64,000 bases of DNA from Dromiciops gliroides (lineage: Eukaryota; Chordata; Mammalia; Microbiotheria; Microbiotheriidae), in assembly GCF_019393635.1 (NCBI RefSeq), contig NC_057861.1, positions 375,892,315 through 375,956,314 of the forward strand, read 5' to 3'. Both the position numbers and the translations under genes were made by a program. Positions 9,667 to 22,620 of this stretch are shown here, in pieces (the first letter of the stretch is position 1; each line of letters starts with the position of its first letter). The notes under the pieces were generated by a model that had not been told where the DNA came from, searched no databases, and saw only the letters and a program-made list of their open reading frames with translations.

Positions 9667-10022
9667 TTTTTTTTTTTTTATTTCACATACATTTTAATGT
9701 AATCAAGGGTAAATATTTTGTGCTTTCCAACAGTTTTAGAAAATTATCAATTACATACATATTTATTTTGTTTTGTTTTGTTTTTCATACACATTTGTGA
9801 TGATTATACTCTAGTACATTTTCCTGTTTGTGGGGGTAGGGATAATCATAAGCCTGGCATTTTGCCAGAGGCACTTTTTTTTTTAAAACAAGAATTTTTA
9901 CATATATATTTTTATATATGTAATATATATATATATATATATAAAATATATACATATATTTTCAGGAATACAATCCTCACCATTTGTGAAAAACACAAAT
10001 CAAAAACAAAAACAAAACTCCT
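9667..10022 (-). other. 3' UTR and poly(A) relic of the DBF4 retrocopy
   Basis: On the minus strand, the sequence after the DBF4 stop runs about 340 bases. It includes an AT dinucleotide patch at about 9900-9958. It then reaches ATTAAA (9698-9693), and about 13 bases later a run of 13 A (9679-9667, written as T on the plus strand). A polyadenylation signal followed at normal spacing by a genomic A tract is the signature of a reverse-transcribed, polyadenylated mRNA. An AATAAA also overlaps the start of the A run. The A run could also belong to unrelated sequence, since I could not confirm the end by a target duplication. Confidence 0.6.
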
Positions 10023-12086
10023 CTAAAACCCAGTAAATGTGGAGGTTGAAGAAGGGGAAGAGAGAAACATGGACAACAAGCTATTCCCAACATTTTCTTC
10101 CTCCCGAACTTTTAACACATCACATGAACCACGGTTTTCAGAATAACTTCTAAAACCCAAAAACTCAGTTTTGTCTTCACTGCTTTGAAATAATTCAACT
10201 AAAGACTGTATTGGTGAATTACAAATACCATTGTCTTCTTTTGTTGTGGGAAATTCTGTTTTGTTCTTTAAATGTAATTCCACATTCTTCTTCTGGCTCC
10301 TTTTTTTGTTTCTTCCTAATACTATTTTTACTTTTTGCTGCAGCTTCCCTGAAGGAAAGCTGTCTGAACCTTCAACAACCACTTCTTTGGGTTCTTCACC
10401 AGGATGAAAGTAGGATACTGTCTTGGCTGGACTTCTAGGCTGTTCTTCTGGTGAATTGCTAATGATCCTGAGACCAGAACTATGACCACGGGGAGAACTA
10501 GTGCCTTTTTTCTTCCAACAGCTATCTGGAAAAAGTGTACTATCTGACTTTCGTTTTAGTTGAGACACATTTTTATTTGTTTCATCAAAATCAGAAATGT
10601 GCATAAATGTCTCTGGGATATACGGGCAGTATTCTGTTTTTAGTTCTTCTAAGTCTTTTTCATTTACAGTTCCATTATGGTCAGAAACTTTAGGCCTATA
10701 GCCCTGCGTATCTTTATTCAGAGGTAGTTGTACCAAATCCAGCTTAATGTCCTCCTTCACTGGATTTATTATAGAAGATTTTCTACAATCCAAATGTTCT
10801 CTGAGTTTCCTTGTTGAATTGTATGATGCAAGTGGATCTATGGACTCTGAACTGAAGGCAACCTTCTGTGAAGGATCCCTGCTCTCTTGATACTGGGAAT
10901 CCTGTTTTATCACTTGTTTGGTAGTATTTCCCCAAAGATCATTTGGGGAAATACTGTGCGATTCCAGTTGTTTTTCAGGTTCATTCCTTTTAAAAGTATT
11001 TCCAATGATGGGGGCAAAAGATCCAATACTGCATTTTACTCTTCTGGATATATTGCTTTTGTAGTCTACAAAGTCATACACCAACTTGGATATGATATCA
11101 TCAACAACTTGATACTGGGTACTTTGTGCAAAGCTTCTGTGTTGTTCACTGAGAAGATGAGCCTGGAGAGTGTCGTATTTCTGGGAGCAGCATGCACAAT
11201 AGCCCTTCTTCTTGTTCTCTTTGAGGCGGGGCTGAACGGGAGGGCATCGCCTTTCATCTGATCCACAACCTGTTCTGTTCCTTTGTTTAGCTTGTGTTTG
11301 TTTCTGCAGACTAGACGTTTTATCCAAATCAAAAGGACTGCAGGGCTTAGGAGCAGAATAGTTTATAAGAGGAATGTTGGACAACTGCAGGTAAAATGGC
11401 CTGTAATGATGGCTTGAATCTTCCACCTTTACAAATGGCTTTTTGAGCCTTCCTGTTTTTGTTTTCTGAACACCTAATTGTTTCCCCACTGCTTCTCGGA
11501 GAGATGTGCTGGATTTCTTGATGAGATACAATTCTTTTTTCTTTTGTTCAATATAGTATTTAATATCATCAATATGAAGAATTTTCACTCCCCAGGATAA
11601 AGCATTTGACAGTATACTATTTGAAGGGATGAATTCATGTTCCTTGATAGCTTTTTCAACTAATAATTTTCCTCTGCTCATACATACTGGATCTGGAGTC
11701 TTGAATGAACTTCCATCACAACTAGGATGAGGTGAAGTATTTCCTCCTGTATATGTTGATTCTGGACTCGGGACAGGAGAAATACATCTCAATGTTTGAG
11801 CATATTTTGCTTCCTTTTTATTTGAAATTAGGTAACTTATATCTTTGCTGAGAAATTCTTCAACCCTCCCTCCTAGTTCCTTGAGGTCCTTTTCCAGTCT
11901 TTCAGAGATCACAACAGATGGCAAATCAAGATAAAAGACTTTCCCCCAGAGTGGCTTATATTTAGACTTTTCTGATTTGTTATCATTTTTCACAGTTTTC
12001 AAAGATGGTCTATTTTTCTCATTTTTTATTTGGATACCACCCGGGTGATGGCCTTTGCTGCGGATCCTCATGGTGCCGGCTTTCAT
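10023..12086 (-). CDS. Intronless, full-length DBF4 copy (CDC7 kinase regulatory subunit), probable retrogene
   Basis: DBF4 (ASK) binds and activates the CDC7 kinase, which phosphorylates the MCM helicase to fire replication origins in the nucleus. The 687-residue product follows vertebrate DBF4 from end to end (about 674 residues in human). It has the N-terminal MRIRSKGHH and KNEKNRPSLK, the BRCT-like motif N region (about 44-180, with PLWGKVFYLDLPS and SKDISYLISNKKEAK), motif M (about 214-245, KKPFVKVED and YRPFYLQL), and the motif C zinc finger with C297, C300, H310 and H316. It ends with the conserved SPIQSLVELFQ patch and STSTFTGF. The linker between the zinc finger and the C-terminus is diverged, as usual in the family. 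I chose ATG at 12086. An in-frame GTG seven codons upstream is unlikely, since family members start just before the MRI motif. Parental DBF4 genes have many introns and this copy has none, so it is a retrocopy. No stop or frameshift occurs in 687 codons. Expression is unproven. Confidence 0.9.
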   Translation of the reverse strand: MKAGTMRIRSKGHHPGGIQIKNEKNRPSLKTVKNDNKSEKSKYKPLWGKVFYLDLPSVVISERLEKDLKELGGRVEEFLSKDISYLISNKKEAKYAQTLRCISPVPSPESTYTGGNTSPHPSCDGSSFKTPDPVCMSRGKLLVEKAIKEHEFIPSNSILSNALSWGVKILHIDDIKYYIEQKKKELYLIKKSSTSLREAVGKQLGVQKTKTGRLKKPFVKVEDSSHHYRPFYLQLSNIPLINYSAPKPCSPFDLDKTSSLQKQTQAKQRNRTGCGSDERRCPPVQPRLKENKKKGYCACCSQKYDTLQAHLLSEQHRSFAQSTQYQVVDDIISKLVYDFVDYKSNISRRVKCSIGSFAPIIGNTFKRNEPEKQLESHSISPNDLWGNTTKQVIKQDSQYQESRDPSQKVAFSSESIDPLASYNSTRKLREHLDCRKSSIINPVKEDIKLDLVQLPLNKDTQGYRPKVSDHNGTVNEKDLEELKTEYCPYIPETFMHISDFDETNKNVSQLKRKSDSTLFPDSCWKKKGTSSPRGHSSGLRIISNSPEEQPRSPAKTVSYFHPGEEPKEVVVEGSDSFPSGKLQQKVKIVLGRNKKRSQKKNVELHLKNKTEFPTTKEDNGICNSPIQSLVELFQSSEDKTEFLGFRSYSENRGSCDVLKVREEENVGNSLLSMFLSSPSSTSTFTGF

Positions 12087-12195
12087 GGCCGCCGCGCCTC
12101 GGTCCACATGCTTGGGCCGGCTCCCGCGGGGCCCGCCACTGCTCTAGCCGGGCCGCCAGCCGGGGTGGGAAGGAAGCGGGCCGAGTCCGCCAAAG
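12087..12195 (-). promoter_or_regulatory. CpG-dense 5' leader of the DBF4 retrocopy
   Basis: About 105 bases upstream of the DBF4 start carry 14 CpG dinucleotides, in a window where CpG is otherwise rare. The block ends abruptly near 12195, where AT-rich sequence begins. This is best read as the 5' UTR of the parental CpG-island transcript carried along in the retrocopy. It could serve as a small promoter or translation leader. No TATA box is evident immediately beyond it on the minus-strand upstream side. Confidence 0.6.
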
Positions 12196-12364
12196 GCACT
12201 TTTGATGTTACATCAATCCTTCCAAGTAGTACCATTATTGTAGAATATTTTAAATTAGTCATTGTTATACTACATGGCAGATATTTCACCACATGGAAAT
12301 ACACTTGCCAAATCTTCATATTTTTTCCTTGTTTCTTAGTTTAAAATGCTAAAATATATATATA

Positions 12365-12505
12365 TTTTTTTTGATGAGGCAATTGGGTTTGACTTGCCTA
12401 GGGTCACACAGTTAGTAAGTGTTAAGTGTCTGAGGCCGGATTTGAACTCAGGTCCTCCTGACTCCAGGGTTGGTGCTCTATCCACTGCACAACCTAGCTG
12501 CCCCC
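12365..12505 (-). mobile_element. tRNA-derived marsupial SINE (WSINE/WALLSI type)
   Basis: Reading the minus strand: ggggcagctaggttg head, a B-box-like gttcaaatccgg, cacttaacacttactaact, and an A-rich tail (T run near 12365). Full length with moderate divergence. Confidence 0.85.
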
Positions 12506-20284: not shown

Positions 20285-22620
20285 TGACACAGATACTCAA
20301 AAAATCTCCAAACAGCCAGAAAACAACTCCTGGAGCAGCAGAATCCAAAAGAAGACAGCTGAGATTATTTTCCAAAGAAAGACAGCTTGGAAGTTTGGCA
20401 GGAGGGGGAGCTGGGCTGGAAGTGGAGTCCAGTCCCATGATTTTGCCAACACAGACCCAGGCCCAGGAAGGCTGTGCCAGAGAAAATTATCCTTGATCCT
20501 CCAAATCAGCTGCAGTGCTGCTGTCTTCTGGCACTAAGCTCATGGTCCTGTAAGGGCTGAACAGCTAGCTGAGGGGGAGTCTATTGAGGTATATGCAGGA
20601 GCTAAGGGGGATTTGGATGTCCTGCCCCAGCAGGAACCAGAAAGAAAACTTGAGTGGTCTCAACCCAGGTTGGGTAGGGGTGCAGGTTCTTTGGAGCTAC
20701 CAACAGGAGACAAAGTTTTACTGCCTGGTTAATCAGCAAGTTGGGCTAGGTTATATATGAGCCAGAGAAAAGTCCAGGTGAGTGAAGAAACTGTCCCTCA
20801 TGAAATCATAACATCTGAGACACCCTGAAGCTTGGGACAGTAAAACTTGGAAGAAGGACCCCACATTCAGAGTAATTAAAAGTCAAGTAAAAGACTGGCA
20901 AGATGAGCAGGCAGAGGAAAGAAAGCTTCTTTAGTGACAAGGAAGATAGAGTTGCACACTCAGAAGAAAATAGCACTGTCAGGGCCCCTACATCTAAAGC
21001 TTCCAAGAAAAATATGAATTGGTCTCAGGACACAGGGGTGCTCAAAAAGGACTTTGAAGGTTGAGTTAGAGAGGTAGAAAAAAAATTTAATGAGAAATGA
21101 GGGTTATGCAGGAAAGTCAGGAAAAAAATTCAACAGCTTGAAAAGACAAATGGAAAAGGAGATACAAAAGCTCCCTGATGAAAATAATTAACTAAAAGTA
21201 GGACTGAACAAATGGAAGCTAGTAACTTTATGAGAAACCAAGACACAATAAAGGAAATCCAAATGAATAAAAAAATAGAGGGCAATGTGAACCATCTTCA
21301 TGGAAAACCTGATGACCTAGAAAATAGTTCCAGGGGAGATAATTTGAAAATTATTGGTCTATCTGAAAAACATGATCAAGGAAAGAGCTTAGATATCATC
21401 TTCCAAGAAATTATCAGGGAAAATTGCCCTGATATTCTAGAAGCAGAAGGTAACATAGAAATTGACAGAATCCACCAATCACCTCCTGAAAGAGTTCCCA
21501 GAAGGAAAACTCCTAGGAATATCATAGCCAAATTCCAGAGTTCCCATGTCAAGGAGAATTTTTTGCAAGCAGCCAGAAAGACCCAATCCAAATACTATAG
21601 AGCCACAGTAAGGATAGTGCAGGATCTAGCAGCTTCTATATTAAAGAATAAGAGGGCATGGAATATGATCTTCTAATGGGCAAAGGAACTGGGACTACAA
21701 CTTAAAGTTATCTACCCAGTAAATCTGAGAATAATCTTTCAGGGAGAAAATTGGAATTCAATGAAAAATAATACTTTCAGGCATTTGTGATGAAAAGACC
21801 TGAACTGAATAGAAAAATTTTGTCTTATGTAAAATGCAATCTAACTACTGAGAGAGAACTGATGGTATTTGAATACAGTTTGAAACATAATTCTTTTTTG
21901 TTAATTACTTTATAGGAAACAAAACATGTGATGAACTGTATGCTATCAGAAAAACCTGGAAAGATCTACAATGAACTGAAGCAGAGTGAAATGTACTGTA
22001 TACAAAATAACAGCAATAGTGTAAGATGATCTGTTGTGAAAGACTTACTTAATTTCTTTCTTTATTTTTATTAAGTTGATTCCATTTTTATTAAATAATG
22101 CAAATGTTTTTCTTGGCACCATTTAGACAGTGGTTGACATGCTCACACAGAGCTGACAGGGTGAGGGTAGGGAGTCCCAATGAATCCTGCAGATGAGTTG
22201 CATGACAAAGAATGCCAGAAAACAAGGACTGCTCTCAAATGTGAATCCATTTGCTTGCCAGTTGATTTAAATGGTCTTCACCTTCACCAAGGCTTACTTA
22301 ATTTCAACAATGCAATTATCCAATATAACTGAAGGACTTATGAAAATTGCAATCCATCTACAGAGAATGAACTTATGGTATCTGAAAACAGATTGAAGCA
22401 TATTTTTTTGATAGTTCATTAATCTTAAATTGTATTTTTCTGTTTTGTTTCACAACCTGGCTAATGTTTTGCTTGACTACTCATTTATAACTTATATTGA
22501 ATTGCTTGAATTCTTAAGGGGCATAGGGTAGAAGAGAAGTTGAAACACAATATTTTAAAAGATTGATTTCAAAATTGTTTTTTACATGTAATTTGAAAAA
22601 TAAAATTACAAATAAACAAA
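20285..22620 (+). mobile_element. HAL1-like half-L1: 5' UTR, ORF1, 3' UTR, no ORF2
   Basis: After a leader (20285-20960), an L1 ORF1 relic runs from about 20980 to 21830. Its clearest open part is 21212-21676, with LENSSRGDNLKIIGL, PRRKTPRNIIAKFQ (RRM) and NFLQAARKTQ. Directly after ORF1 come the L1 3' UTR landmarks (ctgaaggacttatgaaaatt, gagaatgaacttatggtatc near 22330-22385) and an A-rich end near 22600-22620. No endonuclease or reverse-transcriptase region lies between. That is the layout of HAL1 elements, non-autonomous L1 derivatives known from mammals including marsupials. ORF1 has stops in its N-terminal part, so it is inactive. It is interrupted by a retrocopy at 22057-22292. Confidence 0.6.
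22044..22305 (-). pseudogene. Small retrocopy of an unidentified transcript with 13-bp target duplication
   Basis: CTTACTTAATTTC occurs at 22044-22056 and again at 22293-22305, exactly flanking an insert. Read on the minus strand, the insert ends in AATAAA followed by an A-rich tail at the 22057 side. It begins CCTTGGTGAAGGTGAAGACC at the other end. The duplication and tail show L1-machinery insertion of a (probably 5'-truncated) mRNA into the half-L1. One frame reads LVKVKTI then stop, possibly the end of a coding region, but I cannot name the parent. Confidence 0.7.

Follow-up and report, generated by a model that had tools for sequence, protein, structure and literature searches.

Background

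Most retrocopies become pseudogenes. Retrocopies that are intact and yet non-functional form a known class, and in the excerpted text of PMC2657826 it is cited that 258 of 2090 human ribosomal-protein processed copies are intact; the same excerpts give, for the opossum, 232 candidate functional retrogenes, 93–162 of which are estimated to be functional. In the literature on DBF4, retrogenes and marsupials surveyed here, mostly as titles and the opening lines of abstracts, no description of a Dromiciops DBF4 retrocopy was found, which is no proof of absence; in the portion of PMC9448537 covered, DBF4 appears in a gene table.

Here we describe a copy of DBF4 in the window, that is, the whole stretch of 64,000 nucleotides of Dromiciops gliroides DNA (contig NC_057861.1) that was analysed. 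Judging from its letters and alignments, it appears to be a LINE-type retrocopy of Dromiciops DBF4 that is both young and of full length, with the features of a textbook case.

Results

The open reading frame that carries the copy runs on the minus strand from ATG to TAG without an inner stop (687 codons, 12086..10023). In a multiple alignment its product is collinear from end to end with the DBF4 proteins of eight marsupials and human, which bears out the description of a full-length, uninterrupted DBF4 retrocopy given in an earlier note on this DNA. A protein search scored 7996 candidates and returned 644 matches, and the best 120 of the 644 were used in the comparisons. The best match is isoform X3 of the D. 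gliroides DBF4 homolog A (P0001; 687 amino acids), whose identity to the copy over 687 residues is 98% in BLASTP and 99% when taken from the multiple alignment. The second-best among the best 120 of the 644 matches, the DBF4 of Sarcophilus, is 86% and 88% identical by the same two measures. The coordinates of all features are given in Table 1.

Table 1. Features of the DBF4 retrocopy, in coordinates of the window
Feature	Position	Strand	Basis
Whole insert, 2310 bp (5' UTR, ORF, 3' UTR, start of A-run)	9879..12188	-	flanking duplications
5' copy of target-site duplication, AAAAGTGCCTTTGGC in transcript orientation	12189..12203	.	repeat search
GC-rich 5' UTR, 102 nt	12087..12188	-	sequence composition
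Short upstream ORF, stop overlapping the main ATG (ATGA)	12083..12109	-	read from sequence
DBF4 retrocopy ORF, 687 codons + TAG stop	10023..12086	-	ORF listing, sequence, domains, alignment
Inferred parental exon junction 1 (optional CAG, NAGNAG type, missing from copy)	12040..12041	-	alignment, inference
Motif N / BRCT-like region (residues 43–105)	11772..11960	-	Pfam, marginal
Motif M (~residues 209–255, aligned to human 210–254)	11322..11462	-	4f99_B alignment
Inferred parental exon junction 2 (optional CAG 11455-11453, present in copy)	11453..11456	-	alignment, inference
Motif C zinc finger, Pfam zf-DBF (residues 292–335)	11082..11213	-	Pfam
Codon 298, GCA (Ala); human Glu297 of P+4 substrate pocket	11193..11195	-	alignment, PMC7416108
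Codon 533 in copy, CGT (Arg)	10490-10488	-	other marsupials His, parent Cys
Codon 661 in copy, CGG (Arg)	10106-10104	-	other marsupials Trp, parent Gln
10-A run, short retroposition A-tail	9875..9884	-	read from sequence
3' copy of target-site duplication, AAAAGTGCCTCTGGC in transcript orientation	9864..9878	.	repeat search

The insert is bounded by the two copies of a 15-bp target-site duplication (12189–12203 and 9864–9878), which are identical at 14 of 15 nucleotides, with one mismatch. Read in transcript orientation, the 5' copy, AAAAGTGCCTTTGGC (12203..12189), stands directly upstream of the GC-rich 5' UTR, and the 3' copy, AAAAGTGCCTCTGGC (9878..9864), overlaps the end of the A-run, with which it shares the last four of the ten A residues. 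When the window was scanned on both strands in non-overlapping chunks of 400 nt, no match to the 3' 15-mer, with up to one mismatch allowed, turned up in any of 316 chunks; chunks holding either copy of the duplication were skipped, and matches that lie across chunk edges are missed by such a scan. From the base context we take the nick site to be of the TTTT/GA kind, which would fit a LINE-1 endonuclease. The span of 9680–12195 proposed previously does not hold, since the duplications bound the insert at 9879–12188; that span covered 3' flanking sequence as far as a 13-A run that does not belong to the copy, and also part of the 5' duplication. The 13-A run (9667–9679) was rejected as the 3' end of the copy, the duplication being placed at 9864–9878. 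In a plain ungapped search, five A/T-rich repeats outscore the chosen pair, and at least six others equal its score; these low-complexity repeats were set aside as target-site duplications, and the best of them (19/21, 12350–12370 with 9942–9962) has one side inside the insert.

The copy therefore carries what is looked for in a LINE-mediated retrocopy, namely an intronless body, a target-site duplication and a 3' A-tail adjoining that duplication. The intronless state is given by the collinear 687-codon frame together with isoform differences at two presumed junctions, from which, at the level of proteins, the parental introns are deduced. Elsewhere in the window, a remnant of L1 ORF1 is recognized at 21212–21676 on the plus strand (Pfam PF02994, Transposase_22, E 1e-12), so that LINE-1 sequence, broadly the type by which retrocopies are made, occurs near the DBF4 copy.

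The first 162 nt of the insert contain 16 CpG dinucleotides, at an observed/expected ratio of 0.80 compared with 0.08 for the window. The short upstream ORF is the end of the frame of a 78-amino-acid ORF. A functional DBF4 retrogene would have transcripts, in the germ line for instance, and would be held by purifying selection as a working second activator of CDC7. For such a retrogene, which we regard as unlikely although by no means negligible, the retention of the 5' UTR is a favorable sign. The 500 nt upstream of the insert, however, are AT-rich and poor in CpG (observed/expected 0.07), and no CpG-rich, promoter-like stretch was noticed in the base composition of these 500 nt, so that no obvious promoter lies there.

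Two other sequences in the surroundings deserve mention. Just upstream of the insertion, at about 12370–12505 on the minus strand, an A/T-rich-tailed sequence was picked out by eye, and we take it to be tRNA-type SINE-like. At 899–1465 on the minus strand, a frame of 188 amino acids has as its sole match, among 10 candidates scored, a low-quality Sarcophilus NEDD4-binding protein 2-like 2 (45% identity); in contrast to the DBF4 copy, it has the look of an old copy that has decayed.

Between the copy and P0001 there are nine substitutions and two CAG-sized splice-isoform differences. The first of the latter is one residue after HHP, where a CAG added to the copy turns HHPGG into HHPAGG; the second is TG/R after KTK, where a CAG removed from the copy turns KTKTGRL into KTKRRL. 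Both isoform forms occur among the seven other marsupials, six of which have the extra A and four the G, and among 112 further DBF4 proteins from the best 120 of the 644 matches the extra A is found in 5 and the G in 62. We infer that the two differences correspond to NAGNAG tandem acceptors at two exon junctions of the parent. Because the isoform differences are CAG-sized, we take P0001 to be encoded by a multi-exon gene at a separate locus.

A replacement of lost parental function by the copy, as suggested in the earlier note, is contradicted by P0001, a full-length D. gliroides protein that is annotated as an isoform and is distinct from the copy at the nine residues and the two splice-isoform sites. 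The frame in the window would, by its intronless and full-length state, suit the sole functional DBF4 of a species that had lost the parent, or a mis-assembled cDNA. The existence of P0001 speaks against the former and the flanking target-site duplication against a stray cDNA, and we give this reading practically no credence.

Within the encoded protein, the Pfam zf-DBF domain matches residues 292–335 (E 7.8e-16), and residues 43–105 give a marginal match to BRCT (E 1.7e-4; score 22.2 bits, cut-off 21.3). In a search of solved structures, the human DBF4 motif M–C chain from the CDC7 complex (4f99_B) matches residues 209–348 (E 4.7e-57), and the regions of motif N and motif M are both collinear with those of other DBF4s in the multiple alignment. 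The copy also retains C297, C300, H310 and H316, presumably the zinc ligands of DBF4 motif C. The retention of motifs N, M and C with all four ligands, another point of the earlier note, is confirmed by these matches, that for BRCT being marginal. The limits of motif M used here come from the excerpts of PMC7416108. Binding and activation of CDC7, as expected of a DBF4/ASK protein, would be candidate properties of the copy. A full-length frame in which the BRCT-like region, motif M and zinc finger are all retained counts in favor of a functional retrogene.

One change that the earlier note does not mention is E298A. Residue 298, flanked in the zinc finger by C297 and C299, is Glu in all of the 120 DBF4 proteins compared (the best 120 of 644 matches) and in both other DBF4 chains from the solved-structure search, which we assume to be from yeast, whereas it is Ala in the copy, where it aligns with human Glu297. 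In the human CDC7–DBF4 structure, as described in the excerpts of PMC7416108, Glu297 forms a salt bridge with Arg44 of MCM2 at substrate position P+4. This contact, and the constancy of the residue, would be the grounds for an expressed copy with altered activity, in which E298A shifts the substrate preference of CDC7 or the copy competes with its parent. The same excerpts state, however, that MCM2 Arg44 substitutions have relatively minor defects in vitro and that there is no P+4 consensus among targets (PMC7416108). Furthermore, about 10% of random missense changes in the frame strike fully invariant columns, so that one such change in five is unsurprising for a neutral copy. An altered activity is accordingly most improbable in our estimate. 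If the protein is made, E298A might shift substrate preference mildly. It is the sole change in the motif M–C core outside the inter-motif linker, and a young expressed retrogene, as a second CDC7 activator, could conceivably give the animal, perhaps in its germ line, an S-phase kinase variant whose preference among MCM targets is altered, a possibility to which we attach only a very small chance.

The nine substitutions were polarized with the seven other marsupials and the 112 further DBF4 proteins, several of which are isoforms, close kin or unnamed and hence non-independent. Five changes are best read as those of the copy (G279R, E298A, L491P, R524W and R584Q) and four as those of the parent (I447V, R533C, P562T and R661Q), codons 279 and 447 being the least certain. 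At 533 and 661 the copy looks ancestral, because its Arg codons are likely intermediates from His and Trp to Cys and Gln; the parent probably lost these Arg codons by CpG-type changes. Some of the parental changes could be alleles and not fixed differences. From this alignment, the copy seems to keep four ancestral residues that have since changed in the parent, as a fossil of the parental sequence.

Random changes in the frame are missense in 68–71% of cases and stops in about 4%, and a missense share of 70% was used for the estimates that follow. Under neutrality, the five missense changes would thus correspond to approximately 0.35% divergence (0.11–0.81%), or about seven substitutions in the frame, and to an age of approximately 2.3 (0.7–5.3) million years at 1.54e-9 per site per year. 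This rate is used in PMC13429303, in the excerpts of which one legend gives it as per generation (3 years); with a rate per generation, the age would be roughly threefold higher. The one mismatch in 15 between the target-site copies points to an age somewhat above that of 0.35% per branch. With indels at 0.05–0.15 per substitution, the indel ratio and the divergence prior both being assumptions, the probability that a neutral copy still has an open frame is 0.18–0.49 over the settings tried. Since 18–49% of such neutral copies would still be open, an intact frame by itself says little in favor of selection. Given how young the copy appears to be, its open frame calls for no special explanation. 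It had been proposed that the copy is either very recent or kept by selection; recency can suffice, since only 5 of 687 residues appear to have changed on the side of the copy.

Tests of selection were made on amino acids only, with assumed values of omega, and they pull in two directions. Of the five changes assigned to the copy, two are at columns where at least 97% of 119 orthologs agree. The neutral expectation for such columns is 20–21%, and of the changes that a single one of eight marsupial DBF4s has to itself, 18 of 319 (5.6%) are located there. Under constraint, the probability of two or more in five is 0.028 at this threshold, and the likelihood ratio for neutrality is 7.9. The 97% threshold was the first choice and is the most neutrality-favoring of eight conservation measures, the others giving 1.1–4.2; for example, fully invariant columns, with one of the five changes, give 3.3, and columns invariant in seven marsupials, with three of the five, give 1.3. 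On the other hand, a neutral copy of a constrained gene should be faster than its parent, whereas this copy is not (five residues versus four), and this is a point in favor of a functional retrogene. The intact frame and the single difference between the two target-site copies count on the side of constraint as well. With a parental omega of 0.2–0.5 assumed, the 5/4 split and the duplication left out of account, rates and intactness together give a BF (neutral/constrained) of 0.04–0.29, which on inversion (0.287 to 0.043) is 3.5–23 for constraint.

When multiplied by the site-conservation ratio, this BF becomes 0.02–2.3 for the 5/4 split, and over three polarizations, three assumed omegas, calculations with and without the duplication, and all site ratios in their range, it extends from 0.004 to 4.5. 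For these ranges, each of the three splits used the site ratio at n = 5; the ratio was also computed for n = 6 and n = 4. Shifting I447V to the copy or G279R to the parent moves the BF in opposite directions. The amino-acid rate tests thus lean to constraint and the site tests to neutrality, the latter by an amount that depends on the threshold. Combined, these data would lean slightly to constraint, except at a high omega or with the 97% threshold. Our preference for neutrality owes as much to the general rarity of functional retrocopies as to these data.

Discussion

The reading that we consider quite probable is that of an ordinary young retrocopy with no selected function, from a recent LINE-1-type insertion of Dromiciops DBF4 mRNA. 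A spliced and polyadenylated DBF4 mRNA would have been reverse-transcribed in a germ-line or early-embryo cell of Dromiciops, and machinery of the LINE-1 type would have inserted the cDNA, from the GC-rich 5' UTR to the A-tail, with duplication of a 15-bp target site. The insertion would be recent, of the order of 1–5 million years at 1.54e-9 per site per year, and the intronless copy would still be open mainly through the small number of mutations accumulated. The loss of the invariant Glu298 suggests that the copy is starting to drift. The loss of this residue and of the near-invariant Arg584 (E298A and R584Q) also speaks against a functional retrogene, and the young age leaves the open frame unremarkable.

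If silent, the locus adds one to the young processed copies, and its chief use would be as a dated marker. The split between D. gliroides and Dromiciops bozinovici is put at approximately 4 million years in the excerpts of PMC13429303, and the presence or absence of the copy in D. bozinovici would date the insertion against it. If expressed, the copy would be a natural test of the role of an otherwise invariant glutamate of the DBF4 substrate pocket. In either case, a near-identical second locus can confound DBF4 reads and annotations in D. gliroides.

Compared with its parent, the copy has the same N- and C-termini as P0001, but P0001 retains Glu298 and Arg584 and would be the product of splicing, whereas the copy lacks introns and carries five substitutions that we read as derived. 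With functional mammalian retrogenes the copy has in common a complete frame, while transcription and a low ratio of nonsynonymous to synonymous change are characteristic of those genes. The processed retrocopies made by LINE-1 in mammals are, like the DBF4 copy, intronless and of full coding length, with an A-tail and a target-site duplication, and the copy differs from them in nothing essential.
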